A stretch of 64,000 nucleotides of DNA, taken from Blautia parvula. Its GTDB lineage: Bacteria > Bacillota > Clostridia > Lachnospirales > Lachnospiraceae. This document shows positions 1,522 to 28,384 of the stretch, piece after piece; positions within the stretch are counted from its first letter, which is position 1, and every line of letters begins with the position of its first letter. The position numbers and the translations under genes are program-made. The stretch covers positions 2,698,001-2,762,000 of the forward strand of contig NZ_CP084061.1 in the NCBI RefSeq assembly GCF_020215665.1. Reading direction: 5' to 3'. Below the pieces are notes generated by a model, which had not been told where the DNA came from, did not search any database, and saw nothing but the letters and a program-made list of their open reading frames with translations.

Positions 1522-2877
1522 TTAGGCGTTTTTACCTGCTTTACGTTCTGTAATTTCCCTGATAAACTGCGGATTCTTCTTTTCAACATCCAGCATAAGA
1601 ATATCAATCAAAAGGATAATGGCAACAACCAGCGGACCGTATTTAAAGAATGCATCTATACCGGAAATGGTGCCTGCAGTCTGAACTGCCAGGGAACCGT
1701 CATAAGCGATAGCTGAGAGGACGAAACCGAATGCCGCGGTCAGCGCACCCTGGCCGACTTTCGCCCCAACTGAAGCTGCGGAGAAGAGAACGGACTGAAC
1801 GCGCACTCCTGTTTTCCATTCACCGTAATCGATGGTATCACCAATCAAAGCACCTGCCATTCCCATCGCAAAGCCCATACCGATACCGCGAAGCAATGCG
1901 GTGATGAAAAGCATGGTCGTCGTAAACGGCATGAAGATAAATGCAATTTGTGCAGCAAGCATACATCCTGCGCCAAAAATGACCATCTGCTGTTTCGTAA
2001 ATTTATTGAGCAGAAACGGGGCAACTGCTGAAATGATCACACCCGGAAGATTGGAACAGGCAACAAACGTGCCCATCAAAGCGATATTGCCAACAACGTC
2101 CTTCAAATAGTACAAGGATACCGAAAGGTTGAAAGTCAGGATAAAGTTTGCCATCAAATTGACAATAAACGCCATCCACCAGTATTTATTAACAACTGCA
2201 CATTTCACACCAATCAAAATGTTTTCTGCCGGAGCGTCATTTTCCACTCGCTCTTTCACAAAAAAGACGTTCAGCGCAATCGGAATCAAACCGATAACAC
2301 CGAATACCATGATGGCTTTGATCCATGCAGACTGCATCTGCTGACCGCCAAAGTATTCCACCATGGGAATCATAACCGATGCCATGATGGTCTGGGTAGC
2401 GGCTGCAAACATCATCTTAAAAATGAGCATCTGGGAACGGTCCTTGGAATCATTCGTGACATACGATGCAAGCGACCCATGGGCCATACCGACATAAGTG
2501 TATAATATCGTGTTAAAAAGGTTGTAAGTTATAAAAATGTAAGCAACACGAAGCCCTACACTTCCATCCGGCACGGTAAATACCAGAATAACGGAAAGTA
2601 CCATCGGAATTGCCCATTTCATCAAAACCGGAATACAGTGACCGTATTTATTTTTGTGTTTGTCAATCAACTGACCTGCGATCAAATCAGAAATACCGTC
2701 GAAAATTTTTGAAATCATGATCACGGTACCGATCAATGCAGCATTTATCATCAATACGTCCGTATAGAACATTAAAACATAGGAGCTGAACAAAGTATAC
2801 ATTGCATTCAGACCCACATCACCGGATCCATAGATCAGTTTTTCAAATAAGCTGATTTTTTTCATTTCTGTAGCCAT
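1522..2877 (-). CDS. Glycoside-pentoside-hexuronide (GPH) family sugar:cation symporter
   Basis: A 451-residue integral membrane protein with about 12 hydrophobic segments, the size and layout of the GPH branch of the MFS (MelB/XynB-like). The N-terminus FEKLIYGSGDVGLNAMYTL is the typical GPH opening (a G-x-GD-hydrophobic motif), and the loop after the second helix reads SKIFDGISDLIAGQLIDKHK, matching the family D-x-x-sD-x-x-G-x-x-D-k signature. By family it imports a glycoside or uronide with Na+ or H+. The start has an AAGAAGGA ribosome site. It is the second gene after an esterase (3026-3934), suggesting that esterified oligosaccharides or glycosides are taken up. The substrate is not predictable. 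Confidence 0.85.
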   Translation of the reverse strand: MATEMKKISLFEKLIYGSGDVGLNAMYTLFSSYVLMFYTDVLMINAALIGTVIMISKIFDGISDLIAGQLIDKHKNKYGHCIPVLMKWAIPMVLSVILVFTVPDGSVGLRVAYIFITYNLFNTILYTYVGMAHGSLASYVTNDSKDRSQMLIFKMMFAAATQTIMASVMIPMVEYFGGQQMQSAWIKAIMVFGVIGLIPIALNVFFVKERVENDAPAENILIGVKCAVVNKYWWMAFIVNLMANFILTFNLSVSLYYLKDVVGNIALMGTFVACSNLPGVIISAVAPFLLNKFTKQQMVIFGAGCMLAAQIAFIFMPFTTTMLFITALLRGIGMGFAMGMAGALIGDTIDYGEWKTGVRVQSVLFSAASVGAKVGQGALTAAFGFVLSAIAYDGSLAVQTAGTISGIDAFFKYGPLVVAIILLIDILMLDVEKKNPQFIREITERKAGKNA

Positions 2878-2918
2878 TTCAATATCCTTCTTTCCTTTTT
2901 ATAGGTCCCTCAGTATAA

Positions 2919-2957
2919 CAGTTCAGACAGGTCTGTGCATTTACTGCGCTGACCGTA
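2919..2957 (+). repeat. Dispersed hairpin repeat, copy A
   Basis: Core at 2930-2954: arm GGTCTGTGCA, loop TTTAC, arm TGCGCTGACC, preceded by CAGTTCAGACA. One of at least four clear relatives in this window (others near 14123, 28565 and 33407, with a weaker one at 13081). The arms differ between copies but still largely pair. Here it sits between the esterase stop and the symporter start. A second hairpin (ACATCCAG/CTGGATGT) follows at about 2982-3016. Confidence 0.7.
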
Positions 2958-3025
2958 TGAAAACGTACCGGAGACAGACATCCAGCCCATCGTGAAGCGA
3001 TTCTTAATGTCTGGATGTATTCTGA

Positions 3026-3934
3026 CTATCGCACTGCCTTTTGGATGAAGTCCTCCATGATGTCCAGAACCTGTTCCATCCAGAATTCGTTGCCGCTGTG
3101 GTCCGCTCCTTCTATCAAATACAGCTTTACATCCTTTCCGCATTCTTTCATGCGCCGATAAAGAATCACGCTGCCTTCACAGTTTACAACACGGTCTTTT
3201 GTACCATGAAATATGATCGTCGGCGGGATCACACTGTCTTTCTCTATGTTGCATTCCACAGAAAGCCTGCGGCGCAGCTCCTCGCTTTCGCGCAGGTCCA
3301 CATGCCCCATCACCATACCTTCCGGACTGTCCGGCTGACAGTGGAGAAGCTGGGTTGGATTTGAATCTTCCTTCATGACACTGCAGCTTCCGTAGAAATT
3401 CAGAATGCCCTTAACCTCCGCAGAAATACCCGGGAAGAGATTATTTTCCACATCATCGTGGATCATGCCGGCAAACATGGCAGTGTGCCCACCGGAAGAG
3501 TCGCCTGCAACAACGATTTTTTCAGGATCGATCCCGTATTCTTCCGCATGTACGCGCATAAAGCGTACGGCATTTCTGGTATCCATAATTTGTGCCGGGA
3601 AAGGTGCAATGCCTGAATGACGATATTCCACCACAGCCACTACATAACCACGTTCCGCAAGCTTTGCCACTCGCGGAAGCTGTATATATACGTCCTGCTT
3701 AAACCATGCGGAACCCTGTACAAACACTACGCATGGACAGATCATGTTCGGCCGGTTTCGGGTCAGCGGGCGTAAAATCTGCAGATGCAGTTTTTCACCG
3801 TCAATCTCCGCGTACTCCACATCATGTTGATAAAAAACTCCGATTTCGTCGCCGGTGGTCGGAATCCTTTCCGCTCCTTCCACCTCTTCTGCAAATTCCG
3901 GAAACTCTTCATAGGTCCATTCTTTTACTTCCAT
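3026..3934 (-). CDS. Alpha/beta-hydrolase esterase (acetylesterase/BD-FAE-like)
   Basis: 302 residues from the ATG at 3934, which has a GAGGTGAT ribosome site; an in-frame extension upstream is possible but lacks one. The fold is an alpha/beta hydrolase: oxyanion region VFVQGSAWFKQD, nucleophile elbow GDSSGGH (Ser in G-D-S-S-G), an aspartate in FHGTKDRVVNC, and a catalytic histidine in EGADHSGNEF. There is no signal peptide, so it acts in the cytoplasm. By family it removes acetyl or other ester groups from sugars. It is the first gene before the GPH symporter and probably works on its imported substrate. It lies downstream of paired AraC-like boxes (4076-4109). Confidence 0.85.
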   Translation of the reverse strand: MEVKEWTYEEFPEFAEEVEGAERIPTTGDEIGVFYQHDVEYAEIDGEKLHLQILRPLTRNRPNMICPCVVFVQGSAWFKQDVYIQLPRVAKLAERGYVVAVVEYRHSGIAPFPAQIMDTRNAVRFMRVHAEEYGIDPEKIVVAGDSSGGHTAMFAGMIHDDVENNLFPGISAEVKGILNFYGSCSVMKEDSNPTQLLHCQPDSPEGMVMGHVDLRESEELRRRLSVECNIEKDSVIPPTIIFHGTKDRVVNCEGSVILYRRMKECGKDVKLYLIEGADHSGNEFWMEQVLDIMEDFIQKAVR

Positions 3935-4075
3935 AAGATCACCTCGTTCAGTTATTGTTTTACAAATTGTATCATACGTTTTGCCCGGCTTTCTCTTGAT
4001 TCCTCCGCAGGTTTTATTCATTTTTCACCCACATTTTTTTTAAAAATGACATTCACAGATCTTTTTTCATGAAAT

Positions 4076-4109
4076 AAATCGTGATTTATTGTGCTGTAAA
4101 TCGTGATTT
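4076..4109. promoter_or_regulatory. Paired AAATCGTGATTT boxes, candidate AraC-type operator
   Basis: Two identical 12-bp boxes, AAATCGTGATTT, at 4076-4087 and 4098-4109, exactly 22 bp apart (about two helical turns). AraC-family regulators typically bind two direct half-sites roughly 21 bp apart on one DNA face. They lie about 140-175 bp upstream of the esterase start and just downstream of the AraC-GH39 gene. The esterase promoter itself shows only a -10-like TATGAT/TACAAT and no good -35, as expected of an activated promoter. Confidence 0.5.
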
Positions 4110-4117
4110 TTGACAGC

Positions 4118-4151
4118 AAAAAGGGAAATGCCGAACATTTCAGCATTTCCC
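4118..4151 (-). terminator. Rho-independent terminator of the AraC-GH39 gene
   Basis: Perfect 9-bp stem GGGAAATGC/GCATTTCCC with an 11-nt loop (4123-4151), followed on the minus strand by TTTTTG. It begins 27 bp after the stop of the regulator gene. Confidence 0.85.
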
Positions 4152-4177
4152 ACTAAATAATCACTTTGCTATTTTCC

Positions 4178-6652
4178 TTAACGCTTTTCCAGCAATATCA
4201 GCCGCACTTCATGTTCATCCAGTACGGTGGACAGGTTGAAGCTCCCGCTTTTTCCGATCAGGACATTTTCATAAAGAGCGCCATAGGTACTGATCTTCGT
4301 CAGATACAGCTTTTGTGTACGGTTCTGCAAATCCGGCGCGCCCATTGTCATCCATTGGTCATAACTGCTCCCATGCTCACGGTTTACGGAAAAGCTGCGT
4401 TTCAAATAATTGCCTGGGATCATGTTTTGCAGATGAATGGCAAAGCTGCGAGTTCCTTTCTGCACAAATCCCATATAGCGGTCGATTGTTCGCTGTTCCT
4501 CCAGCGGAATCCATTCCGTCAGATGATTTTGTTCATCATAGTGGCAGTAATGGTACAGCAGAATCTGCAGTTTCCTGCCCTCCCCGGAACGAGTAACTAT
4601 ATATCCGTCCCCCTCAGCAAGAATTATATCGCCGTTGTTCTTTAAAAGCGTCAGAAACATCATGGCATAATAGGCCGCCTTTGGTATCCCGTAATAGTTT
4701 AAAATACCATAACCGCCATGATAGGGATTAGAGTTCATGACACGGCGTTCCGAGTTATCTGTCAAATGTGCCATTGCCATTGCAGTGACCAGATTGCGGC
4801 TCTCCAGGCAGTGCTTCACTACTGCGGCTGCCTTAAAACAGGTATCATTCCCCAAATCATTCTGCCACAATGTGGTATTCCAACCGAAAACAGAGATCGG
4901 CAGATCCGAATACCCATACTCATCCAGACAAGAACGGAGTTTCTGCAGACGGTGCTGCAGTACACTTTCATCAGCACTGATCGGCGCCGGCTCCCCCGGC
5001 TGTTGGTCCATCTTTGCCTGAATACGATTCTCGGTGACGGCACGGTCATATTTGGCATGATCCATGCAGAAACTCTGTACACTCAGCTGGGTGGGAAGGC
5101 AGCTCTTTTGTCTGCAGTAGTCTAAAAAGCGATAAAGAATGTCAAATCCATCCACAGATAAAAAATCAATATCGAACACACGTGCCTTCCACATGGCCCC
5201 CGGTAGCTGCTTCTGCAATATCTTCCAGGTGGTTTCGTAATAATAAAGATAGTCCTCCAAGGAGAAAACACCATACTGTACAAACAGGAGCTGTTCCGGT
5301 GTGAAACTCCACAGCGAAACCAACTCTATTCCATAACGGTAAACAAGATGCTCTAAAAAACCACTCACTAAAAATTTCCACTTTTCCAGATTATCCGGAA
5401 GCCCAATACAAGAATTCCCAAAAACATGCTGACGATCTTTGGTCAAAAGTTTTGGGGTATAACCCAGTTGGATCTGCAGGGTAATATTAAGATCCACCAA
5501 AAAATCCAGAATTAAATCAATATAGGTAAAACTCAGCCATGGCCTGCCGTTTTTGTCCTCATGATAAAAGTCCAGAGAATCGTCAAAAATCCCGAAAAAC
5601 AATACACTCTGAAAGCCGATTGTTTTCACAGAATCGCGGACTGCATCACGGACCTCCTCGTGCAAGAGCTGTTCTGCCCAGCCAAGTGACGTGGAATCGT
5701 TGTGATGAAGCTGCAATTTACCAAGATTTTCCCGGGCATCAATTTCAATACGGGTTGGCAGAGTGCTGCGTTTGTTTAACGGCAGCACTGCTTCTTCTTT
5801 TGCCGCATATTTTAAAAGATTCATATAAGACAGTGTACCGGAAATAGCGGCGATTCCCTCCTGCGGCTGCGGGGATGCCTGTTTTTCATAACATCGGCGA
5901 TAGTTTCCGGGCGTAATGTGGTATTGCTGCCGAAAGTTCAATATAAAGGTGTTGGTATTGGAGAAACCGCATTCCAATGCAATGTCCGTCACGCTCTGCC
6001 GTTTCGTGCGCAAAAGATACTCTGCTTTATTTAAGCGCAGCTGACGCAGATAATCTGAAAATGAGATGCGCAGTATTTTATGAAAATCACGGGACAACTG
6101 GCTTTTGGAGAGATGCACCAGATCCGAAACCGTCTGTAAACTCAATTCCTCTGAAAAATGCTGTCCGATATAGATCAGGACTTTCTGTATTCGTTCTATT
6201 TCCTGTGTCGGGTGCAGTTCGTATGACTCCGGTAACTCAAACTGTGATTTCAGGATAGCCAGCAGTCCGAAAAGGTGACTTAAGATCTGCAGCCGGCGCA
6301 GATCAGGCGAATCGGTAACCTCTTTGAACACCACCGCCAGGTTCATGCGAATCATGGAAAGATAATCGGCTTGATCCGGCTGCAATTTACTGCAGCATTT
6401 AACACGTCCTAAATTTGCCTGCTGTAAAATCGGCAGCGAAATATATGCCGAAACAGTATGCGCACCCGCTTCGCGATAAATCTCATGGTGTTCATACGGG
6501 TTATATACAGCAAAGTCCTCACTGCTCAAAAGATAATTGTTTTTTGCCGTCATCACAGCACACCGGCCGGTCAGCACATAAAGTATTTCCAGCTCCCCAT
6601 GAAAATGCGGAACGGATGTGTCGCAGTCAAATTCAAAACGAATTTCATCCAT
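4178..6652 (-). CDS. AraC-family regulator with a C-terminal degenerate GH39-like sensor domain
   Basis: 824 residues. Residues 1-75 are a cupin-like domain (HFHGELEILYVLTGR). Residues 152-255 are an AraC helix-turn-helix pair (LSLQTVSDLVHLSKSQLSRD and DIALECGFSNTNTF). Residues about 320-800 resemble a GH39 beta-xylosidase barrel. Both catalytic glutamates appear to be lost: the acid/base motif WNEP is replaced by W448-S-F-T, and the nucleophile motif (T)EWN by F589-G590-W591-N592. I infer that the barrel binds a sugar rather than cutting it. A ribosome site (AAGGGGTGA) precedes the ATG. The gene has its own promoter and terminator and lies between the fructan operon and the esterase-symporter pair. 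The ligand is unknown, but a xylan-type or similar glycoside is plausible from GH39 ancestry. Confidence 0.88.
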   Translation of the reverse strand: MDEIRFEFDCDTSVPHFHGELEILYVLTGRCAVMTAKNNYLLSSEDFAVYNPYEHHEIYREAGAHTVSAYISLPILQQANLGRVKCCSKLQPDQADYLSMIRMNLAVVFKEVTDSPDLRRLQILSHLFGLLAILKSQFELPESYELHPTQEIERIQKVLIYIGQHFSEELSLQTVSDLVHLSKSQLSRDFHKILRISFSDYLRQLRLNKAEYLLRTKRQSVTDIALECGFSNTNTFILNFRQQYHITPGNYRRCYEKQASPQPQEGIAAISGTLSYMNLLKYAAKEEAVLPLNKRSTLPTRIEIDARENLGKLQLHHNDSTSLGWAEQLLHEEVRDAVRDSVKTIGFQSVLFFGIFDDSLDFYHEDKNGRPWLSFTYIDLILDFLVDLNITLQIQLGYTPKLLTKDRQHVFGNSCIGLPDNLEKWKFLVSGFLEHLVYRYGIELVSLWSFTPEQLLFVQYGVFSLEDYLYYYETTWKILQKQLPGAMWKARVFDIDFLSVDGFDILYRFLDYCRQKSCLPTQLSVQSFCMDHAKYDRAVTENRIQAKMDQQPGEPAPISADESVLQHRLQKLRSCLDEYGYSDLPISVFGWNTTLWQNDLGNDTCFKAAAVVKHCLESRNLVTAMAMAHLTDNSERRVMNSNPYHGGYGILNYYGIPKAAYYAMMFLTLLKNNGDIILAEGDGYIVTRSGEGRKLQILLYHYCHYDEQNHLTEWIPLEEQRTIDRYMGFVQKGTRSFAIHLQNMIPGNYLKRSFSVNREHGSSYDQWMTMGAPDLQNRTQKLYLTKISTYGALYENVLIGKSGSFNLSTVLDEHEVRLILLEKR

Positions 6653-6757: not shown

Positions 6758-8116
6758 TCACACTCCCCCAGGCACCGGCGTAGCCCTAAAAGCATTCACA
6801 CGCCTGTCAAGGACAACCTGCTCCTCACTTCCTGAATCCAGTATAGTATTTTGAAAGGATTCTTTTGCCACCAGAACAGTTGTCACATCAAGCACCGCCA
6901 GTTTATCCGTAGCAGTAAGAGCATCCACCTGTGCAGAAAAGCAGGAATCCGATGCCCCGGTCTGTGCATCTGCTGCCTCCGTTGTGGCAACGATATGATT
7001 ATCAGATATATAATTTCCCTTGCCCGAGACAACATGTATGATCACAGGTTTTGCGCCGGCCGGCTTGATAGACTGCCTATGGATCGTTTCTGAAATATGG
7101 TTGGCGATCACCGAATTATGATTGCCGCTGATGCGCAGAAGGCCATACCTGTCATCTAAGCCATTGTCATTTTTAAGCATAGGCGCCCATGGTTCATGAT
7201 CACGTAAAAAGTGGTTGGAAGAGACCGTGTTTTCCGAACAGTTCCCTTCAAATACCAGTGCCCCCGGATAAAAGGAATGAAATCTGTTGCCTGTGATAAC
7301 AGAGCGGGCAACCTTATCGAAATGGACACAGCTTGTACCTCTCGGAAAAATATTATTTGAAGTGATCAAAAGTCCTCCGAAATTCTGCGCAAAAACAGAA
7401 TATCCCCTGTACCCGGCTCCCATCAGGTTATCAGTTATCTTAGATGCCTGTCCCCAGCCGCGCAGTTCGATACAGTTTCCGCATTCAGCTATAAAATTAT
7501 CATGGACTGACAATGCGTCTGCATGGTAAATAATAACCCCATGCTCTAAATATACAAAGCCCATGCCTGTGATCCGGAAGGAATCCTGTGCACTGGCAAC
7601 ATAAATGCCTGTTTTGCCATTCACATATGTATTTTCCGGATCATTTTTTCCTGAACCGTCGTCCGCAAAGTGTAATCCGTCAATACAGAAATTTTCAAAT
7701 TCCACAGAGCTGATCCTGGGATTTCCGCTCCGTTCCACATAAAAGGCGGCTCCTGCCGCCTCACCATCTGCGTCCTTCGGAGAAAGGTCAACTAGTATGC
7801 GGCTGCCTCCCGGCCACACTTCATGCAGATCCTCCCATTCACTCTTTGGAAGATTATAACGAATGCTTGAAGATACAAAACCATGTCCGGCACCCATGAT
7901 TTTCAAATAACTGATATCAATCACCACCTGCGTACGAAGATGATAATCCCCTGACGGAATGTAGATGACAGCCCCCGGTTTTCCGCCCTCCTCCACATTG
8001 GAATCTGTCTGTCTGCTTTTAATATCCGCCAACATGCTGTTGATCACTTCTCCTATATCTTTATAGGGATCTCCGACGTTCCATTCCGTAACATCATAGT
8101 AATTTTTACCTGCCAT
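6758..8116 (-). CDS. GH91 difructose-anhydride enzyme: inulin fructotransferase or DFA III hydrolase
   Basis: A 452-residue right-handed beta-helix protein resembling inulin fructotransferases along its length, with motifs such as GAVIYIPSGDYHLRTQV, GMGFVYLEHGV, NNIFPRGTSC and NGLDDRYGL. The catalytic pair of the Bacillus enzyme (Asp233 and Glu244, 11 residues apart) corresponds to D200 in HADALS and E211 in FIAECGNC. Known GH91 members either cyclise inulin ends to difructose anhydrides or hydrolyse DFA III to inulobiose. Inulin-acting ones are secreted; this one has no signal peptide and starts directly at the fold (YYDVTEWNVGD). With a sugar importer and a cytoplasmic GH32 in the same operon, the hydrolase role is the better inference. 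It is the last gene of the operon. Ribosome site AGGAGG. Confidence 0.85.
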   Translation of the reverse strand: MAGKNYYDVTEWNVGDPYKDIGEVINSMLADIKSRQTDSNVEEGGKPGAVIYIPSGDYHLRTQVVIDISYLKIMGAGHGFVSSSIRYNLPKSEWEDLHEVWPGGSRILVDLSPKDADGEAAGAAFYVERSGNPRISSVEFENFCIDGLHFADDGSGKNDPENTYVNGKTGIYVASAQDSFRITGMGFVYLEHGVIIYHADALSVHDNFIAECGNCIELRGWGQASKITDNLMGAGYRGYSVFAQNFGGLLITSNNIFPRGTSCVHFDKVARSVITGNRFHSFYPGALVFEGNCSENTVSSNHFLRDHEPWAPMLKNDNGLDDRYGLLRISGNHNSVIANHISETIHRQSIKPAGAKPVIIHVVSGKGNYISDNHIVATTEAADAQTGASDSCFSAQVDALTATDKLAVLDVTTVLVAKESFQNTILDSGSEEQVVLDRRVNAFRATPVPGGV

Positions 8117-8175
8117 ACATAAATCCTCCTATATATTTAACGCCGCCCGGCCTGACAATAATGCTTCCATCCGTT

Positions 8176-9660
8176 CTAACAATAACAATCCTTTATTCCG
8201 TATGTCTCAATCTCTTTGATCACCGCACTCCCGCCAATCGCCCGGATTTTCAACTGATTCTGCGTCTCTCCCGCAAAAATATTATTAGAATGGTTATTCC
8301 GGTAATTATCTGTGAAAATTTCAAGTGAACTCCGGTCTGACAGAATATGGACGTCCAGCTCCCTTTTTCCCTTCAGATACATAACGCTTCTCGAAATACC
8401 TCTGCTCCATCCATCTGCTTTCTCACGATCTACACTCATTTCCGCATTCTCAAGATCAAACAGACATACCGTCTTTTTTCCTTCTCCGCAGCGCAAAAGC
8501 AGCTCCAGTTTATCCGCATCTGTATTCTCAAGATCAATCTTCAGCTTCAGTTCAAAAGCCACACCGTCTCCGGCTCTCAGTTCTGTCTCCTCTTCCGTGA
8601 TCACAAGACTGTCCAGATATTCCGGGTTCTGCCTCAAAGCTTTTATTTCCTCGATTGGCAGAAACTGTAACGTGCTGTCTTCCATCAAACGTACCTCCAG
8701 AGGGATGTTAAAAAAGCCGCACCAGCCTTCCCTGTAGGTTGGCCCCCAGTCCTTCCATAATGGCATCCATTCCCATTCATTTGACCATCCTGCCATGATC
8801 CTTCTTCCATCCGGTACCGGAAATGACTGCGGTGCATAATAATCAAATCCCCAGTTGATTTCACCGCTCACATGAGGATAAAACCTTCCTGTCTTATAAT
8901 CAAAATCCCCCACCAGATACACGGCAGTATGGTCGCCTGCCCCCATAGGTGAAAAGGTCAGAACATATTTATCGCCTATCGGATAAAAATCCGGGCATTC
9001 CCACATGTATCCCCATTCCCCACGGCTTTCCGCCAGAACCTGGAAGAACTTCCAGTGGAGCATATCCCCGGAACGGTAGAGAAGTGCCAAGCCCCTGTTT
9101 TCACGGCTTGCGCCGCATACCATATAATACATGTCCTCGTGCTTCCATACCTTCGGGTCACGAAACATATCCGGCAAAATCCCTTCCGGCGCTGTCAGCA
9201 CCGGGTTCCCTTCATATTTCTCAAAATGGATTCCATCCTCACTGTATGCGATACACTGTGTCTGCTCATAACCTCTTCCCTTATTGGCTGTTCCGGTGTA
9301 CATGAGGAAAAGTTTATTGTCATGTTCTATCGCACTTCCGGAAAAACATCCGCCTTTTGGATGATCGTCATACACTTCACTGGGTGCCAGTGCCGGCGGC
9401 AGATACTCCCAATGGAGCATATCCTCGCTGATGGCATGCCCCCAATGCATACTGTCCCAGAAACCACTATAGGGATTGTGCTGAAAAAAGAAATGGTATT
9501 TTCCCCTGAAATAAATCAATCCATTGGGATCATTCAGCCACCCTGTCTGCGGCATAAAATGATAGCGCTGACGCATCACGCCATTCTTAACATCTTCCTT
9601 TTTTCTGTCTGTCTCCATCTGAGCCTTTTCAATATTCAGCTTCAATATTTCTTTACTCAT
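8176..9660 (-). CDS. GH32 beta-fructofuranosidase (sucrose/levan/inulobiose hydrolase type)
   Basis: 494 residues with the complete GH32 signature: nucleophile D44 in GWLNDPNG, transition-state stabiliser D168 in FRDPKVW, and acid/base E221 in WECPDFY, within a five-bladed propeller (residues 30-340). A C-terminal beta-sandwich follows (SSLEIFTDNYRNNHSNN). There is no signal peptide, so the enzyme is cytoplasmic. It releases terminal fructose from short fructans or sucrose. Lying 18 bp after the permease and 59 bp before the GH91 gene, it could hydrolyse inulobiose made by GH91, giving two fructose. Ribosome site GGAGGAGG. Confidence 0.93.
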   Translation of the reverse strand: MSKEILKLNIEKAQMETDRKKEDVKNGVMRQRYHFMPQTGWLNDPNGLIYFRGKYHFFFQHNPYSGFWDSMHWGHAISEDMLHWEYLPPALAPSEVYDDHPKGGCFSGSAIEHDNKLFLMYTGTANKGRGYEQTQCIAYSEDGIHFEKYEGNPVLTAPEGILPDMFRDPKVWKHEDMYYMVCGASRENRGLALLYRSGDMLHWKFFQVLAESRGEWGYMWECPDFYPIGDKYVLTFSPMGAGDHTAVYLVGDFDYKTGRFYPHVSGEINWGFDYYAPQSFPVPDGRRIMAGWSNEWEWMPLWKDWGPTYREGWCGFFNIPLEVRLMEDSTLQFLPIEEIKALRQNPEYLDSLVITEEETELRAGDGVAFELKLKIDLENTDADKLELLLRCGEGKKTVCLFDLENAEMSVDREKADGWSRGISRSVMYLKGKRELDVHILSDRSSLEIFTDNYRNNHSNNIFAGETQNQLKIRAIGGSAVIKEIETYGIKDCYC

Positions 9661-9678
9661 AAGCCTCCTCCGTACTCC

Positions 9679-10509
9679 TTAACCTTTTAAAGCTCCTGCT
9701 GTCATTCCCTGCACAATATATTTTTGAGCCGCAAGGGAAATGATCATCACCGGAAAACTAAACAAAAAAGCTCCTGCACACATTGGCCCCAGATCCAAAT
9801 TGTATGCCGACAAAAATCCGGCCAGTCCAACCGTAAATGTCTTTGCACCGGTACTGGTCAGCAATAATGCCACAAGGAAATCATTCCATGCAAGGAACAG
9901 GGTAAATATAAACGCTGTTGCCAAACCGGGTTTACAGATCGGCAGAATAACCTTCAAAAATGTTTGGAAGCTGCCTGCCCCGTCTACGAATGCTGCCTCG
10001 TCCAGTGTCGTGGGAATTCCCTCATAAAAACTTAACATGGTCCACATGACAAACGGCATATTGATGGCTGCGTAAACAATGATCAAGGCAATTTTGGTAT
10101 CATACAGGCCAAGATTACAGATCAATTCATAAATCGGCACTACAATACTTGAAGTAGGTATCATCTTCAGGCATAAAACCAAAACCACCAGTATGATCGA
10201 TAATTTGGCACCTGAGCGCTGTATTGCATACGCTGCAAGAGATCCCAATATCAACGCGATCACTGTACTTATCAAGGAAGCACTCAAACTGTTGAACAGA
10301 AATCCGAGTGCATCCATTCTTTCAAACAGTCCCCCAAAATTTTCAACCGAGAACACTTTTGGGAAAAAACTCGGCGGAACTGCGATCACTTCTGATCCCG
10401 GCTTGAAAGAACAACAAATTACATATATGTAAGGGAAAAGCCAGAATACAGTTAAAACCACTGACAGACTGATTCCCAGCTTCTTCCCGACCTCACCTTT
10501 AAATTTCAC
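9679..10509 (-). CDS. CUT1 sugar ABC transporter permease (MalG type)
   Basis: About 276 residues from a GTG start at 10509, chosen because AGGAGG lies 9 bp upstream; an upstream GTG at 10530 is possible but sits on top of that site. It has six hydrophobic segments and the permease EAA loop DEAAFVDGAGSFQTFLKVIL, where the shared ATPase docks. The C-terminus IVQGMTAGALKG is typical of MalG-type subunits. It forms the membrane channel with the preceding gene. No ATPase gene is in the operon, so a multitask MsiK-like ATPase elsewhere must power it (known for the family). Confidence 0.92.
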   Translation of the reverse strand: MKFKGEVGKKLGISLSVVLTVFWLFPYIYVICCSFKPGSEVIAVPPSFFPKVFSVENFGGLFERMDALGFLFNSLSASLISTVIALILGSLAAYAIQRSGAKLSIILVVLVLCLKMIPTSSIVVPIYELICNLGLYDTKIALIIVYAAINMPFVMWTMLSFYEGIPTTLDEAAFVDGAGSFQTFLKVILPICKPGLATAFIFTLFLAWNDFLVALLLTSTGAKTFTVGLAGFLSAYNLDLGPMCAGAFLFSFPVMIISLAAQKYIVQGMTAGALKG

Positions 10510-10534
10510 CTTTTTTCGCCTCCTATCCACTCAG

Positions 10535-11419
10535 CTAACAGTTCTTTTTCTTCGGATTCCACAGACTCTGCATAAATACCAGCGTAAATATTACTAATAC
10601 TGCAATAAATACCACTGCCATTGCGCTGGCATACCCCACATCATTATAGCGCGTCAATGTCTTGTATATAATAATACTGAGTGTTTCCGATGAGCTGTTC
10701 GGACCTCCCTCCGTCATTGCCCAGATAATATCAAAGGTTCTGGCCGCGTCAATGATCCTTACGGACAATGCTGTCAGTAAAACCGGTTTGATCACAGGAA
10801 GCTTTATGGCAAAGACCTGCTGCAGCATACCTGCCCCGTCAATTTTCGCGGCCTCCAGCATACTGGAATCCAGGCCCTGCAGCCCGGCCAATATCATCAG
10901 CATCATAAACGGTGTAGTGAGCCAAATATCAGCGATACAGCATGCAGCTAACGACCACCTTTCATCCGCAAGCCACAGAATGTCACTGCTGCTTGACAAA
11001 ATCCCAATTTTAGCCAATAGTTCATTGACAATTCCGAAACTGGAACTCATCATCAATTTCCATGTAAGACCGGCTACTAAAGGCGCGATCATGAGGGGTG
11101 CCATCATGAAGGATCGTATCACTTTACTTCCTTTATAGTTCAATTCAAAGAATAATGCGAATAATAAACCGATTGCCGTCTCAAAACTTACAGCCACTGC
11201 AATATATATCAAAGTATTCTTTAATTGTTTTAAAAATCCGCCGGCGGTAAATGCACGTATATAGTTTTCCAAACCGATAAATGTCTTCTCACCTGTGATT
11301 CCGATTTGAAAGAAACTGTCGGCTACCATTGTAATGATTGGATATATGAGAAATGCCCCCATAAATACCGCACCCGGCAGAAAAAATAGTAATAATGTTT
11401 TTCTTGAAATCAATCTCAT
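10535..11419 (-). CDS. CUT1 sugar ABC transporter permease (MalF type)
   Basis: 294 residues from the ATG at 11419, which has AAGGTGG 8 bp upstream; a GTG at 11431 is less likely. It has six membrane segments, opening with LLLFFLPGAVFMGAFLIYPI, and the EAA loop LEAAKIDGAGMLQQVFAIKL. It pairs with the MalG-type subunit encoded 25 bp downstream. A long hairpin separates it from the binding-protein gene. It is part of the fructan or difructose-anhydride import operon. Confidence 0.92.
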   Translation of the reverse strand: MRLISRKTLLLFFLPGAVFMGAFLIYPIITMVADSFFQIGITGEKTFIGLENYIRAFTAGGFLKQLKNTLIYIAVAVSFETAIGLLFALFFELNYKGSKVIRSFMMAPLMIAPLVAGLTWKLMMSSSFGIVNELLAKIGILSSSSDILWLADERWSLAACCIADIWLTTPFMMLMILAGLQGLDSSMLEAAKIDGAGMLQQVFAIKLPVIKPVLLTALSVRIIDAARTFDIIWAMTEGGPNSSSETLSIIIYKTLTRYNDVGYASAMAVVFIAVLVIFTLVFMQSLWNPKKKNC

Positions 11420-11441
11420 TCTATTTACCACCTTCTATAAA

Positions 11442-11503
11442 CAGAGGGGAAAAATCGCTGTTCACTCCGTGCCCAGCAACACGCTTCGCGGGATTCCCCT
11501 CTG
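11442..11503 (-). other. Intra-operon stem-loop between binding protein and permeases
   Basis: Perfect 10-bp arms CAGAGGGGAA (11442-11451) and TTCCCCTCTG (11494-11503) around a 42-nt loop, with no T-run. Such hairpins after a solute-binding-protein gene commonly stabilise the upstream message and reduce expression of the permeases. Confidence 0.6.
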
Positions 11504-11537
11504 CTGCTCACTTTATCTGTTTCACTGCGCGCCTCCG

Positions 11538-12764
11538 TTATCGGGCGATCGCTTCAATCTCATTCTTTGCTGATTCTAATGTCTCGTTTATATCTGCGCC
11601 GCCCAGACTGGCTTCCACAACACCGATTAAAACCTCTTCGATCTGAGCCCATGTTGTCACCATAGGCCTTGCCTGTGACTGCTTTGCTTTTAACGTATCA
11701 AGAACTGCCGCTGTATGCTCATTGCCCGCCTCTTTACCTGCTTCTTCATATACAGATGTTCTGCCTGCGATCTTTAAGGTAAGATCCATATAATCCGCAT
11801 TGTGGCTGTACATATATTCTACATATTTTTTAGCCATCTCTTTATTTTCAGAGCCTTTCATAACGCATTCATACCAGGGACCGGTTGTTGCCCCAATACC
11901 CGCACTTCCGCTGATCATCGGTGTGCATCCGACTTTATCGGCACCGAGAGCCTTTACTGCCGCCGGATACTGATGGCTCCAGTTCAGCTGCATGGCTGTT
12001 TTTCCGTTCGTAAAGAGTTCCTGCGACTCTGTAGAGGCTGTGGCAAGTGAATCTGACGGAGTGTAATCAGCGTTGGCATTTTCCACCATAAAATGCAATG
12101 CATCTGCGTAAGCCTGATCTGTTATATTTACATTGCCGTCTTTGTCAAATACAAGTCCCTTTGCACCGGCCTGACATGCAAAGTCAAGAAAAGAACACAC
12201 TGCATCCGATCCACTTCCAAAGACTGTTGTTCCGCTCATATCATCGGTCTTCATTTCTTCCGCAACTGCCTGATACTCTTCCCATGTCTTTGGCACTTTT
12301 TCTTCCGGTATAAGGTCTTTTCTGTAGATCAGCACTTTTGTATTTACCCACATCGGGTACCCCAAAAGATTCCCATCAATCGTTCCGCTTTCCTGTAATG
12401 TAGGCAGAAAATCACTGGTATCTGCATCATTGACGGCTTCCACTGCGTCTGCAAATGCTGCCAGCCATACCACATCCATACACGCCACGTCATGGGCCGC
12501 CTGCTTTGCCTTGATCTCTGTAGAAAGCTTATCGTACATTCCTGTATAGGCAACCGCGTCAATAATAACCTCGCATCCTGTCTCCTCTTTAAAAGATGCC
12601 GCTGTTTCTTTTGCAAGCGCCTCTGCGGGTGAACCGCTTTCTACCAGTACAGTAATGCTGTTCTTATGATTCTCTTCCTTTTTTCCTCCATCTGCCCCGC
12701 ACCCGGTTGCCATTGTTCCTGCCATCATTGCCGCAAGTATGATACTAAGCATCTTTTTCTTCAT
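11538..12764 (-). CDS. Sugar ABC transporter solute-binding lipoprotein (CUT1)
   Basis: 408 residues. The N-terminus is a lipoprotein signal ending in a lipobox with C22 (MAGTMATGC), followed by an acidic linker and a type-I/MalE-like binding fold (VLIYRKDLIPEEKVPKTWEEY; ELFTNGKTAMQLNWSHQYP). It is anchored outside the membrane and delivers sugar to the two permeases encoded downstream. First gene of the operon, with AGGAGG before the ATG. Given the GH32 and GH91 enzymes that follow, the ligand is probably a fructo-oligosaccharide or a difructose anhydride (inference). Confidence 0.92.
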   Translation of the reverse strand: MKKKMLSIILAAMMAGTMATGCGADGGKKEENHKNSITVLVESGSPAEALAKETAASFKEETGCEVIIDAVAYTGMYDKLSTEIKAKQAAHDVACMDVVWLAAFADAVEAVNDADTSDFLPTLQESGTIDGNLLGYPMWVNTKVLIYRKDLIPEEKVPKTWEEYQAVAEEMKTDDMSGTTVFGSGSDAVCSFLDFACQAGAKGLVFDKDGNVNITDQAYADALHFMVENANADYTPSDSLATASTESQELFTNGKTAMQLNWSHQYPAAVKALGADKVGCTPMISGSAGIGATTGPWYECVMKGSENKEMAKKYVEYMYSHNADYMDLTLKIAGRTSVYEEAGKEAGNEHTAAVLDTLKAKQSQARPMVTTWAQIEEVLIGVVEASLGGADINETLESAKNEIEAIAR

Positions 12765-12826
12765 TTTTCAATCCTCCTGTTTTCCTATTGATCATCTGTT
12801 TTCGTTACTTTTGCTTTGATGGCTCT

Positions 12827-12865
12827 ATTGTATTCCATGAAACTTATAATGTCAAACGTTTTCAT
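12827..12865 (-). promoter_or_regulatory. Consensus promoter overlapped by a LacI-type operator
   Basis: Minus-strand -35 TTGACA (12850-12855), 17-bp spacer, -10 TACAAT (12827-12832). The -35 lies inside a CG-centred imperfect palindrome, ATGAAAACGTTTGACA (12850-12865), the form bound by LacI/GalR proteins. It resembles but does not fully match a CcpA cre site. Binding would block RNA polymerase; the divergent LacI gene 13132-14112 is the obvious repressor. Confidence 0.75.
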
Positions 12866-13131: not shown

Positions 13132-14112
13132 ATGAGTAAAGTAAAGATTACAGATATCGCAGAGAGAAGCGGCGTTTCCCTGACTACCGTTTCCCGGTAT
13201 TTCAATCATCCTGAACTTTTGTCTCAGGAGACACAAGATAAAATCAAAGCTGCGATCAAAGAATTGAATTACCAGCAGGACAATCTGGCCCGTATTTTAG
13301 TAACCGGGGAATCCAATCTGGTAGGAGTCATTTTTCCCCATCTTCATTTAAGTTTCTATACCGAGCTGCTAAATCAGCTTATTAAGTACGGCAAAGAAAA
13401 GGGGTATAATTTAATCGTCTATACTTCCAACGATTCAAGGGAGGAGGAACTGCAGCTGATCCAAAACCTGATTTCCTACCGGATCAAGGGATTGATACTG
13501 CTGAGCCATCTCCTTTCAGCCGAAGACATTGAAAAGCTGCCCGTACCGGTGATCTCCGTTGAACGTGTCGGCGGTAATTTCAAACAGATCAACAACGATA
13601 ACTTTACCGGTGGAAAGCTGGCCGCAAATCTTCTGGTCCGCAACGGCTGCGAGGTTTTCATTCATATCAATAATGATTTTCGGGAAGACTGGCCTTCCTT
13701 CAAGAGAATTTTGGGATTTGAATATGAGGTAAGAGACTTATGTTATGAACGTGTGATAGAACATGATTTCACAGATACTTACACACTAAAAGCTGCCGAA
13801 TCCATGAACCGGTTAGTTCAGCATATTATCACCAAATATGCCGGTAAGAAAATAGGTGTCTTTTGTTCCAACGATGATATTGCGAGTCTGTTTGAACGCC
13901 AATGCATCAAAAATGGGATTGCTATTCCAAATACAATTGAACTGGTCGGATACGACAACTCCCCGGTGTCCAACTATGCCGTACATTCCATCACTTCCAT
14001 CGATCAGAATATCCCTCTCATGGCACAGATTGCAATCCAGTCACTGGAAAACTATATCCCATATGAGAGTATGGTGCCTGCTACATTGGTTGAAAAAGAA
14101 ACGACAAGTTAA
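13132..14112 (+). CDS. LacI-family repressor, probable regulator of the fructan/DFA operon
   Basis: 326 residues: helix-turn-helix ITDIAERSGVSLTTVSRYFN, hinge IKELNYQQDN, then a sugar-sensing domain (NLVGVIFPHLHLSFYTELL to VGYDNSPVSNYAVHSITSID). It is transcribed divergently from the binding-protein operon, whose promoter carries a LacI-type operator, so local repression relieved by an imported sugar or breakdown product is likely. The start has a GTGAGG site. It ends directly in hairpin repeat copy C. The effector is unknown. Confidence 0.93.
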   Translation: MSKVKITDIAERSGVSLTTVSRYFNHPELLSQETQDKIKAAIKELNYQQDNLARILVTGESNLVGVIFPHLHLSFYTELLNQLIKYGKEKGYNLIVYTSNDSREEELQLIQNLISYRIKGLILLSHLLSAEDIEKLPVPVISVERVGGNFKQINNDNFTGGKLAANLLVRNGCEVFIHINNDFREDWPSFKRILGFEYEVRDLCYERVIEHDFTDTYTLKAAESMNRLVQHIITKYAGKKIGVFCSNDDIASLFERQCIKNGIAIPNTIELVGYDNSPVSNYAVHSITSIDQNIPLMAQIAIQSLENYIPYESMVPATLVEKETTS

Positions 14113-15388: not shown

Positions 15389-18300
15389 TTAAACTGCCAT
15401 TTTTTTATAAATATAACAATTCTGATGATTATGATCAAGCTGTAATGCTTCATCAAAGTATTCGGAAGCTTTTTGTTTTTCTCCCATACCAAGCTTTGCA
15501 AGGCCCATCAGATAAAAGCAATGTGCCTTATTCCTCACATTCATATCCTCTTCAAAAATAAGGAAATCCGGTAATGATACTGCGAAAAAGTCATCCTTCA
15601 TCTCATCATTTAAATGTCTTTCTCCGTAATCCATCAGCTTATTAAAGCACGCATATGCTTCTTTTGTATTTCCAAGCTCCAGATTTGCCAGACCCTTGTA
15701 AAGAATCATGTCTGCGGGCTGGTCGTAATAGTATAAAACGCCTGCAGGTTCATTTTCACCGATCCGGGCTTTTTCAAAGCACTCTGCTGCTTCTGCTTGG
15801 CTGCCAAGCATCTTTTTCACAATTCCCAGATAGTAGTACAGGTGATTATCCTTTGTGCCTTCCAGTTTTCCTTCTCCCAGATTATGGGGATAGATCATTG
15901 CTTTCTGAAGTAATTCCTCTGCCTGTTCATACTGAGCCTGAGCAATTTTTTCTTTTGCCATTTCCAGCAGTGCGATCTTATACTGGCCGGAAATTCTCCC
16001 TTCTGCGCCTTCCCACGGTCGGAATGTATGGGACATAATGGTTTCATATGCTTTTTTATGCATACCCGTAAGATTGTAGAGAGTAACAAATTCCAGCATC
16101 ACATCATCCCGCTCTGCCACAATATCCATATGTTTTTCATATCTCTCCAAACGCTCTGTGAACGGCACTCCCAGTTTCTTGTATAACTGGTCTAACTCCA
16201 AAAATACTCTTGAATCTGTCTCATCCAAAGCAAAAGCCTTTTCCATCTCTGTTTTTGCTTTCTGCAGATTTCCCTGCTTATTATAATAAGCAATTGACAG
16301 ATTTCTGTGTACTGTGGGATAACTATTATCCAGTGCTGTGGATTTTTCCCAAAGCCCGATTGCCTGCTCAAACTGCAGCTTATCATAATAGAGATTGCCG
16401 AGATAGTAATAAGCTTTTGCACCTTTTTGCAGTACACGGATCGCCTCTTTTAATACGGCAATGTCCTCTAATTTATTGGGGAAACAATAGATAGGGTTAC
16501 ATGCATCCGCTTCTTTGTACTCACTGATACATTTTTCCGTATTCCCCAGTTTTGCGTAATAGTAACCTTTGTAATAGGACAAAAGCGGATATGCCTTTGT
16601 GCACTGTTCCAAAATGGCAATTGCCTCCTCATAACACCCGGCATCTGCATAATCTCTTGCAGTCATCAGATAATTTTCCTGGAAATTGCGCATTAAACAA
16701 TTCATTTCTGAAAGTATTTCTGTATTATCCTCTTCTGATAACGCCAGTTCAAATCCGGACATATAATCAAATGCATCAACCTTTAAGTTTTCCGCAATCC
16801 AGTCTTTTGCCTCCTTTGTTCTTCCCAGTTTCCGAAAAATGACTGCTTTTAGAGCTCTTGCCTTTATATTATGGCTGTTCTTTACAAGCCCCTTTTCTAT
16901 TAGCTCTAAGGCTTCCTCATAATTTGCTCTTCCGGCCTCAATAGCTGCCAGATAATAAAAAGACATTTCCTGCTGTTCATTGCTCCAGGTTGCCTTGTAA
17001 AATGCATCGAAGGCTTCCTCCTTCCGGTCCTGATAAAACAGAACCAGTCCCAGATTGTAATAAGCCTCACTGTTAAAAGGATTCGGGCTTCGAAACGTCA
17101 GCCTCTTGATCGCCGCGCGGAAATGTTTTTCTGCCTCTGTAAAATTACCTCTTCTGAAAAGCAGCATACCGTAAGCATTGTTGATCCTGCTGTCGCCCGG
17201 ATCTCTTTTCAGACCTTCCAGATAATACGGGTCAGGAAGATAGGTGGCATGGCGGTGCTGTTCTATATGCTGGGCTGTCAATAGAAGCTCCTCATTGGTC
17301 ATGATCTCTTCCGGATTTTTAGCTGCCTCTGCCGGTTTTCCAAGTTCCGGTATTTCTTCCTTTTCCGGCTGATAAGATACCAGCAGTTTTTTTCCATGAT
17401 ATACAGAAACACAGATATCTTCTTTCTTTTTGACATCTGCCGGGATAGCTGCCTCAAAGATATCTGTTGGAGACAGAAAACCTTTTTTACGATAAATCTC
17501 CTGCCCGGCATTTGTCACAACTACTTCTGCGTCCTCATATCTCTGTGTCCCATATATGGTAACCCTGATTGTCTCACGGTCTATCTCTGCACCAAGTGCG
17601 GCATGGATCGTAGCATTCTTTACTGCGCCTACCTTTTTGTAAGGCATGAAATATTGTTTAAAGGTCTTTTCCTCAAATGGTTTCAGCCATGTAAAATCCG
17701 GCTGGTTTTCTGTATAAACGCCTGTCATCAATTCAATGTAAGGCCCGTCTTCGTCTGTCAGGCTTCTGTCCCATGCTTTTCCGAACTCCCCGCAGCCCCA
17801 CGTCCACTGTTTCTTACCCGGTGAAAAATGGTGGTCCGCTACATGAAGCAGCCCTGCCTCTTTCTGATAATCGTAACCGCCCACAAAATCATATTTTGAT
17901 GTCTCAGCCATATAGGATGTGGGTACCGGTATGTTCTTATATCTGGAGATATCCACACCTTCACTGTAGTCATGTTTGTAATATACACCTTTTGCAATGG
18001 GGAAACGTGATACATCCCTCTTGCCGTGATCATATACCGTATGAACATCCGGCGGAAAAACAGACTGTGTATGATCGTTGACCGGAACTGCCGGATTGGC
18101 CCACCATAAAAAGGTCTGCGGCATGGCAGTCCGGTTATAAAGCTGTCCCCGGATTTCAATATATGCTTTTCCCGGATACAGAGTAAAGGATGCGATTCCT
18201 TTTGTCCCATACATCTGGTCCACATCATTTACCATAAGTGTCTTACTTCCGTCTTCATGTTCACTGATCACATGGTCAACCGGCATATAAGTAGTCGGCC

Positions 18301-18670
18301 TGTGATGCTGGGGCCAGTTAAATTCAATCCCGCCTGAAATCCATGGGCCGGCAAGACCTACAAGAGCCGGTTTGATCACATGATTATAGTATACAAAATC
18401 ATAGTCGTTTGTCTTGTCATAGGCTCTCTGAATACGGCCACCCAGTTCGGGAAGGATCATAACCTTCAGGTATTCATTCTCCAGATAGACTGCATGCCAT
18501 GTCTTATCTTTCTTTTCATGGCTGATGATCTCTGTGGTAGGATAGGGATATACCTTTCCTGAACTGCCCTGATAAACCCTTTTCTCCAAAAACATTGGGT
18601 TCTTATCCGGTGCTCCCACCTCATATGTAGGAATCACAACTGATTCTTCCCATATTCTAACTGTATCCAT
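15389..18670 (-). CDS. DUF5107 and TPR-repeat protein
   Basis: 1093 residues from the ATG at 18670, which has an AAAGGAG site; the frame extends 22 codons further without one. The N-terminal ~400 residues match DUF5107: VMILPELGGRIQRAYDKTND, GPWISGGIEFNWPQHHRPTT and WWANPAVPVNDHTQSVFPPD. The look is of a galactose-mutarotase-like beta-sandwich (inference). Residues ~480-1080 are tandem TPR helices (YYNLGLVLFYQDRKEEAFDA, YYYLGNLYYDKLQFEQAIGL). No signal peptide, so cytoplasmic. It is the last gene of the galactan operon, 4 bp after the GH53 gene. Its role is unknown; family members recur in polysaccharide loci, so a glycan-processing enzyme with a TPR scaffold is possible. Confidence 0.85.
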   Translation of the reverse strand: MDTVRIWEESVVIPTYEVGAPDKNPMFLEKRVYQGSSGKVYPYPTTEIISHEKKDKTWHAVYLENEYLKVMILPELGGRIQRAYDKTNDYDFVYYNHVIKPALVGLAGPWISGGIEFNWPQHHRPTTYMPVDHVISEHEDGSKTLMVNDVDQMYGTKGIASFTLYPGKAYIEIRGQLYNRTAMPQTFLWWANPAVPVNDHTQSVFPPDVHTVYDHGKRDVSRFPIAKGVYYKHDYSEGVDISRYKNIPVPTSYMAETSKYDFVGGYDYQKEAGLLHVADHHFSPGKKQWTWGCGEFGKAWDRSLTDEDGPYIELMTGVYTENQPDFTWLKPFEEKTFKQYFMPYKKVGAVKNATIHAALGAEIDRETIRVTIYGTQRYEDAEVVVTNAGQEIYRKKGFLSPTDIFEAAIPADVKKKEDICVSVYHGKKLLVSYQPEKEEIPELGKPAEAAKNPEEIMTNEELLLTAQHIEQHRHATYLPDPYYLEGLKRDPGDSRINNAYGMLLFRRGNFTEAEKHFRAAIKRLTFRSPNPFNSEAYYNLGLVLFYQDRKEEAFDAFYKATWSNEQQEMSFYYLAAIEAGRANYEEALELIEKGLVKNSHNIKARALKAVIFRKLGRTKEAKDWIAENLKVDAFDYMSGFELALSEEDNTEILSEMNCLMRNFQENYLMTARDYADAGCYEEAIAILEQCTKAYPLLSYYKGYYYAKLGNTEKCISEYKEADACNPIYCFPNKLEDIAVLKEAIRVLQKGAKAYYYLGNLYYDKLQFEQAIGLWEKSTALDNSYPTVHRNLSIAYYNKQGNLQKAKTEMEKAFALDETDSRVFLELDQLYKKLGVPFTERLERYEKHMDIVAERDDVMLEFVTLYNLTGMHKKAYETIMSHTFRPWEGAEGRISGQYKIALLEMAKEKIAQAQYEQAEELLQKAMIYPHNLGEGKLEGTKDNHLYYYLGIVKKMLGSQAEAAECFEKARIGENEPAGVLYYYDQPADMILYKGLANLELGNTKEAYACFNKLMDYGERHLNDEMKDDFFAVSLPDFLIFEEDMNVRNKAHCFYLMGLAKLGMGEKQKASEYFDEALQLDHNHQNCYIYKKMAV

Positions 18671-18674
18671 CCTC

Positions 18675-22556: not shown

Positions 22557-22603
22557 AGAATGGTCTCCTGTCTATGACTTTATCGTTATCATCCGCCGCA
22601 CCT

Positions 22604-24889: not shown

Positions 24890-24903
24890 TTCTTTCTCTC
24901 CTT

Positions 24904-25740
24904 CTATTCCTTCACAGCCGCTCCGCTCAAAGAGGTGATCAGGGTTTTCTGTGTCACGATAAAATAAATAATAAATGGTATTGCAATGATCAGAGAACCG
25001 GCTGAAAATGTTGCAAACATGTTTTTCTTTTCTGTGACAAATCCAAATAATCCCTGTGCAATGGTCTGCACATTGGACGACCGGAGCACCAATTTCGGAA
25101 AAATAAAATCCATCCAGGGCGCAATAAAGCTTGTGATCGTCAGCAATACGATGATGGGCCTTGACACCGGCAGGATCACTTTTGCAAAAATCTGGAAATG
25201 CCCGGCTCCGTCAATTCTCGCCGCCTCATCCAGGCTTTTGGAAACCGTATCCATATAACTCTTTACCATCCAGGTATTATAGGGAATATTCCCCGCCAGA
25301 TAAACCAGCACCAGCCCCCATAATGTATTCAGACCCCCGATTCTTAACAGGATCACATAGATTGCAACCATCCCCACAAAGGATGGGAATATCTGTAAGA
25401 TCAAGAGCGACATCATAAGTGATTTCTTAAACACAAAACGGAATCTGGAAAATACATAGGCGCTTAATGCACAGATAAATACTGTGCTGACTGTTGTTGC
25501 CACCGCTACAATAAGCGTGTTGCGAAACCAAAGCGGAAAATCCGTTTTTTGAAATAAGTAAATAAAATTTTTTATCGTCACCCCATTCCCAAATGGAATA
25601 ATACTCAGGGATGCGATATTCTGCTGCGGTGAAAAGGCTGCTGCCGCCACATAAACCAGAGGATACACCACAAACAGGCTGGTACCGATCAGAAACACCC
25701 ATACAAGTACGGAAGTAAATATTTTTCCACTCTTTCCCAT
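24904..25740 (-). CDS. Galacto-oligosaccharide ABC transporter permease (MalG/GanQ type)
   Basis: 278 residues with six membrane segments and the EAA loop DEAARIDGAGHFQIFAKVIL; the C-terminus LITSLSGAAVKE is typical of MalG-type subunits. Its ATG overlaps the stop of the preceding permease (TAATG), so the two are translationally coupled. Order in the operon is binding protein, MalF, MalG, GH35, GH53, as in Bacillus ganSPQAB. No ATPase is encoded locally. Confidence 0.92.
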   Translation of the reverse strand: MGKSGKIFTSVLVWVFLIGTSLFVVYPLVYVAAAAFSPQQNIASLSIIPFGNGVTIKNFIYLFQKTDFPLWFRNTLIVAVATTVSTVFICALSAYVFSRFRFVFKKSLMMSLLILQIFPSFVGMVAIYVILLRIGGLNTLWGLVLVYLAGNIPYNTWMVKSYMDTVSKSLDEAARIDGAGHFQIFAKVILPVSRPIIVLLTITSFIAPWMDFIFPKLVLRSSNVQTIAQGLFGFVTEKKNMFATFSAGSLIIAIPFIIYFIVTQKTLITSLSGAAVKE

Positions 25741-27047: not shown

Positions 27048-27077
27048 CACAGTTTTCCTCCTCCTGGATTCTGCGTG

Positions 27078-28310: not shown

Positions 28311-28384
28311 GTTCATCTTCTCCTTTTCTTTCATTTTATAATGTCATTGTTTTGTTTTTATTGCTTTTATCTCTTTACGGCTTC

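Follow-up and report, generated by a model that had tools for sequence, protein, structure and literature searches.

A difructose anhydride III utilization operon in a Blautia genome, with a predicted LacI operator at its promoter

We analyzed a 64,000-nucleotide stretch of a Blautia genome (hereafter the window; assembly GCF_020215665.1, contig NZ_CP084061.1, positions 2,698,001-2,762,000 of a 6.25 Mb single-contig genome), in which a protein of glycoside hydrolase family 91 (GH91) is encoded at the end of a short gene cluster. With a probability of about 0.93, we read this cluster as an operon for the utilization of difructose anhydride III (DFA-III), a ring-shaped fructose dimer, in a gut strain that is very probably B. 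parvula or near-identical to it. The preliminary description of this DNA, made from its letters before any database search, had presented a complete import-to-fructose operon under LacI control as notable. The DFA-III breakdown operon is, however, already known: essentially the same gene set and its enzyme were published in 2024, together with the pathway (Ye et al., PMC11538131).

The cluster occupies the minus strand and is transcribed in the order substrate-binding lipoprotein (11538-12764), two permeases of ATP-binding cassette (ABC) type (10535-11431 and 9679-10530), GH32 beta-fructofuranosidase (8176-9660, 494 aa) and GH91 protein (6758-8116, 452 aa), the genes being 106, 4, 18 and 59 bases apart. 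A LacI-family regulator of 326 aa (13132-14112, plus strand) diverges from it. The gene positions and names in the preliminary description (importer, GH32, GH91 last, LacI) agree with the open reading frame (ORF) list and with Pfam, which matched SBP_bac_1/8 in the lipoprotein, BPD_transp_1 in both permeases, both the N- and C-terminal GH32 domains (Glyco_hydro_32N/C), LacI/Peripla_BP_3 in the regulator, and Beta_helix_2, NosD and Beta_helix in the GH91 protein. The binding lipoprotein and its pair of permeases together have the composition of a CUT1 importer. The GH32 protein carries NDPNG (43), RDP (167) and ECP (221), motifs that we take to have their usual roles in the family.

Neither enzyme has a hydrophobic N-terminus, and the lipoprotein does. 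On a plain hydropathy measure over residues 1-40, the best 11-residue Kyte-Doolittle mean is 0.82 for GH91, 0.18 for GH32 and 2.45 for the lipoprotein, which also has a lipobox-like ...MATGC. The absence of a signal peptide from GH91, on which the preliminary description had built its case for a cytoplasmic enzyme, is thus borne out.

The GH91 family includes both DFA-III hydrolases (DFA-IIIases) and inulin fructotransferases, and several lines of evidence place the window protein with the former. In a phmmer search of the PDB, DFA-IIIase entries came out on top (5zks, E 1.7e-199, residues 2-450), ahead of the entries labeled as fructotransferases (9j4i, 1.7e-106; 2inu, 1.2e-101; 8hsn, 5e-82). 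Identity in the alignment is 66.8% to 5zks compared with 48.7%, 48.1% and 45.1% to 9j4i, 2inu and 8hsn, respectively. Because the match to 5zks is this strong and many genomes share the gene order, a chance GH91 match can be excluded. The entry 5zks, which we take to be the enzyme of Arthrobacter chlorophenolicus (consistent with PMC11538131), shares with the window protein the lid, the Asp/Glu pair and a matching Cys; it differs in having a lid segment five residues shorter and a His at the position of D206.

The lid segment, whose role in DFA-IIIase is recounted in PMC11538131, spans about residues 376-414 of the window protein. It is 39 residues long there and 34 in 5zks, in contrast to 8-9 in the three transferases. 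We compared it across 83 rows: the window, 80 named loci (the best matches among 242 confirmed relatives, from 275 candidate stretches) and two genus mates. All 83 have a segment of 35-95 residues, and all keep Cys392, which lies within it and equals Cys387 of 5zks. The longest segment, 95 residues compared with 35-50 elsewhere, belongs to L056 (Clostridiales bacterium 1_7_47_FAA, GH91 at 10001-11506), where extra residues have been inserted in the lid or next to it.

The Asp/Glu pair D200/E211 named in the preliminary description is invariant in all 83 rows and in the four PDB chains, the transferases included. A second pair 11 residues apart, D206/E217, was rejected as the catalytic pair: its Asp is replaced by His in 5zks and by Asn in 8hsn, and since position 206 is not conserved, D200/E211 is the right pair. 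In the Bacillus enzyme the catalytic pair is, we assume, D233/E244, which would correspond to D193/E204 of the 2inu chain if 40 residues are added.

With the lid columns removed, a tree of 87 rows separated the 83 window-side rows and 5zks from the three transferases (Shimodaira-Hasegawa-like approximate likelihood ratio test, SH-aLRT, 99.9; a quick method with this support measure in place of the bootstrap). Clustering with fructotransferases, the outcome that the preliminary description had set beforehand as the one that would overturn its reading, was not seen. A profile search of the phylum for further fructotransferases matched 2 of 398 genomes, the window's own and one weak partial match, and added none to the tree.

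That the GH91 protein is instead an inulin fructotransferase producing DFA-III from inulin is hardly credible. It belongs to the same family, its Pfam repeat PF18835 (Beta_helix_2) is labeled as that of inulin fructotransferase, and its identity to 2inu and 9j4i is substantial, but the lid, the lack of a hydrophobic N-terminus, the much closer identity to DFA-IIIase and the split in the tree all stand against it; we rejected this class on the lid and on the side of the tree where the protein falls. We favor an intracellular DFA-III hydrolase, as the preliminary description had proposed, because the tree, the lid, the catalytic residues, the N-terminus and the conserved gene order all point to it, and this comparison of sequences likewise supports feeding of the enzyme by an ABC importer.

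The published work, cited here from its main text, characterized BpDFA-IIIase of Blautia parvula NBRC 113351 (LC508_RS12690, GenBank UBU24192.1), whose gene adjoins a GH32 gene, ABC transporter genes and a gene for an uncharacterized GH39 protein (PMC11538131). The enzyme interconverts DFA-III and inulobiose reversibly, and fructose is produced once a Bifidobacterium GH32 is added. The main text reports a sugar kinase next to the genes of B. hansenii and B. hydrogenotrophica and mentions none for B. parvula. The calculated mass printed for the C-terminally His-tagged protein (pET23a) is 50,103 Da; the window GH91 with LEHHHHHH appended comes to 50,103.1 Da. Six tags, each with or without the first Met, gave 12 masses, one of which matched. 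Among 79 full-length relatives (of the 80) given the same tag, the mean was 49,937 Da with a standard deviation of 563, none fell within 5 Da of the printed value and seven fell within 50 Da; these masses are approximate, as the starts of the control proteins come from the tblastn match. By this mass agreement, the window GH91 is probably BpDFA-IIIase itself; taken with the GH39 neighbor and the lack of a kinase in the cluster, it makes the window very probably DNA of B. parvula or of a near-identical strain. Likened by enzyme mass (within 1 Da), gene content (GH91, GH32, ABC importer, GH39 neighbor) and pathway model, the NBRC 113351 cluster and that of the window revealed no difference.

The same study bears on what the operon takes up. 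One alternative is that its substrates are short inulin-type fructo-oligosaccharides (GF3, GF4, inulobiose), trimmed by GH91 and GH32, with DFA-III incidental. In vitro, BpDFA-IIIase does attack inulin, GF3 and GF4, giving DFA-III and inulobiose (PMC11538131). GH32 enzymes are general beta-fructosidases, and the specificity of the importer for DFA-III is a proposal. The growth data point the other way: B. hydrogenotrophica, which has the cluster, grows on DFA-III and does not degrade 1-kestose, whereas B. wexlerae JCM 31267, which has no cluster, does not use DFA-III and degrades 1-kestose (PMC11538131). The lid marks the hydrolase subfamily, and two further full-length GH32 domain matches and two weak ones outside the cluster in the same genome could serve oligosaccharides. 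We therefore consider this alternative very improbable and retain DFA-III as the substrate. The in vitro activity also qualifies the earlier statement that an intracellular GH91 cannot meet polymeric inulin, which holds for the location of the enzyme and fails for its chemistry; by the same token, finding that the enzyme acts on inulin would not by itself overturn the hydrolase reading, because the published enzyme has this activity.

We propose that the lipoprotein and the two permeases bring in DFA-III, with energy that would come from an ATPase encoded outside the cluster. Cytoplasmic GH91 would then open DFA-III reversibly to inulobiose, a step in print for the B. parvula DFA-IIIase, which is probably the same protein. 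GH32 would cut inulobiose to fructose and so draw the equilibrium forward; this is in print with the Bifidobacterium GH32, and we extend it to the enzyme of the window. Fructose would enter glycolysis through a kinase encoded elsewhere. Of the operon called complete in the preliminary description, the importer, GH32, GH91 and LacI are in place; an ABC ATPase gene and a fructokinase gene are both absent from the genes of the cluster by the ORF list and Pfam. In Firmicutes the ATPase of CUT1 importers is often shared and encoded away from the importer genes, and the window's genome has three MalK-type ATPase matches elsewhere. It also has, at 5.2 Mb, a 61% relative of a PfkB-like kinase found in the corresponding operon of a genus mate (G399), which is a candidate for the final step. 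Three cluster-bearing strains grew on DFA-III in the published work, and B. hansenii, which is without fructose metabolism, degraded DFA-III without growing (PMC11538131).

In our sample of the family, GH91 matches came from 12 of 397 genomes, counting the window's own, and of the 13 places matched, 3 hold short fragments; in the genus, it occurs in 3 of 20 genomes, again including the window's own. The GH91 matches L008 and L010, in family members G388 and G313, each contain one internal stop codon and are either decayed copies or the result of sequencing errors. The cluster of G399 resembles that of the window in its LacI, lipoprotein, permeases, GH32 and GH91 (82-94% identity) and in an operator with one mismatch, and differs in that the PfkB-like sugar kinase, named by eye, stands between GH32 and GH91.

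For synteny we used the 70 of the 80 named loci in which 6 kb or more of sequence precedes GH91. An importer gene was counted when tblastn, at an E-value cutoff of 1e-8, placed a homologue on the same strand no more than 6.5 kb away with 150 or more residues aligned; identities run from about 30 to more than 90%. Homologues of all three importer genes lie near GH91 in 57 loci, and importer and GH32 homologues together in 49. Twelve of the 70 have a divergent LacI gene whose product is at least 50% identical.

The regulator has a LacI helix-turn-helix and a sugar-binding domain, its gene is divergent, and a conserved site lies at the promoter. The LacI-lipoprotein intergenic region holds TAATGAAAACGTTTGACA-17-TACAAT, a promoter-like arrangement with 11 of 12 matches in which the end of the conserved motif is the -35 box. 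We predict a sigma-70 promoter here (TTGACA, 17 nt, TACAAT; 12827-12855, minus strand) and a LacI operator, ATGAAAACGTTTGACA (12850-12865, minus strand), overlapping the -35 box, in both cases from conservation beside orthologous LacI genes. Fifteen such regions were compared (the window, 13 named loci and L098), each the stretch from LacI to the lipoprotein gene, or from LacI to GH91 for L028. The 15-base motif is present without mismatch in 10, with one mismatch in 2 and with two in 1, and a -10-like hexamer lies exactly 17 bases past it in the 13 motif-bearing regions, although these include close relatives (four Enterococcus), such that there are fewer independent cases than the count suggests.

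By comparison, none of 48 loci with the lipoprotein gene but no orthologous LacI reaches two mismatches or fewer in the 600 bases upstream of the lipoprotein match, and four have three. Among 3000 mononucleotide shuffles, 5 reached two mismatches and none fewer. TTGACA would be conserved in any case as a -35 box; the TGAAAACGT part would not be. We think it likely, at lower confidence than the operon as a whole, that LacI is a dedicated DFA-III or inulobiose sensor whose operator TGAAAACGTTTGACA is fused to the -35 box and kept from Blautia kin to Enterococcus, Vagococcus and Lactococcus (the last with two mismatches). LacI would repress the operon by sitting on this site, and DFA-III or inulobiose would be predicted to free it.

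The only exact copy of the 16-base site in the genome is the one at this locus. When up to two mismatches are allowed, the pattern and a reversed control each give 8 hits, which offers no indication that the regulon extends further. The words "LacI", "regulator", "operator" and "AraC" do not occur in the main text of PMC11538131. Among the open-licence papers searched, the pairing of difructose anhydride with LacI gave one paper, on DFA-I, and we found no DFA-III-specific LacI control unit in print in that literature.

Several observations weigh against the reading of the cluster and its control given here. No importer homologue lies near GH91 in 12 of the 70 loci; among them are L052, L064, L067, L071 and L073 (of Serratia, Rahnella and Entomohabitans), whose GH91 carries the lid, and these Gram-negative loci may use another importer. 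The match to BpDFA-IIIase is by calculated mass, an indirect measure satisfied by one of 12 combinations, and not by sequence. As the best 80 of 242 relatives were taken, the three PDB chains are the distant GH91 members of the tree, and the family's deeper branches are sparsely represented. The lid is known from the alignment alone. The import-GH91-GH32-fructose model, Figure 6 of PMC11538131, is put forward by its authors as a hypothesis, and importer specificity is inferred. Two regions beside LacI orthologues, L053 and L063, lack the operator (best sites with 4 and 5 mismatches). Finally, the promoter scan taken overall does no better than chance, with 17 sites found compared with 13.5 expected; our promoter prediction draws on conservation and not on these counts.

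Downstream of GH91, 105 bases away on the same strand, lies a gene whose product, by Pfam, combines an AraC-type regulator with a GH39 domain (4178-6652). Next come genes for an esterase of BD-FAE type (3026-4021) and a sugar transporter of the MFS_2 family (1522-2877), all three being on the minus strand. The closeness of the first gene raises the question of whether the three belong to the DFA-III operon. A GH39 protein is drawn beside the B. parvula cluster in PMC11538131, although the authors doubt in the main text that it takes part. Among the 80 named loci, full-length AraC-GH39 occurs near GH91 in one, L026 of Salipaludibacillus, where a homologue with 27% identity across 838 columns begins in the same orientation 926 bases past GH91. 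What comes next there, however, is a pair of GH3 genes in place of the esterase and transporter (L026:12271-20473), which suggests a different module. The other 79 named loci have matches to the AraC part or none, with no full-length AraC-GH39, and none of the 80 contains a match to the esterase.

In contrast, genus mates G402 and G403, in which no GH91 was found, keep the same three genes together (AraC-GH39 at 45%, esterase at 58 and 60%, then MFS_2, at 58% for G402), and a separate promoter-like site precedes the window's AraC-GH39 gene (6701-6673, from the chance-level scan). As the module is kept in genomes without GH91, we rejected AraC-GH39 as an operon member and regard membership of the three genes as unlikely. 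On balance, gene neighborhoods suggest that 4178-6652 encodes the AraC-GH39 regulator of a separate three-gene module, unrelated to the DFA-III operon.

Beyond this module (1522-6652) lies a second LacI gene at 236-1213. On the other side of the DFA-III operon, the minus-strand region 15389-28334 encodes a DUF5107-TPR protein, a GH53 protein with carboxypeptidase-regulatory-like repeats (1293 aa), a GH35 protein and a second substrate-binding protein, and it looks like a galactan-utilization locus.

Taken together, these results indicate that the published route probably allows the strain of the window to subsist on DFA-III, a prebiotic that occurs in caramelized sugar. To that route our analysis adds a predicted repressor and operator, grounds for setting the GH39 neighbor apart, and a wider spread of lid-bearing GH91 proteins: with importer homologues nearby, these extend past Blautia to Paenibacillus, Bacillus and kin, Enterococcus and Arthrobacter.

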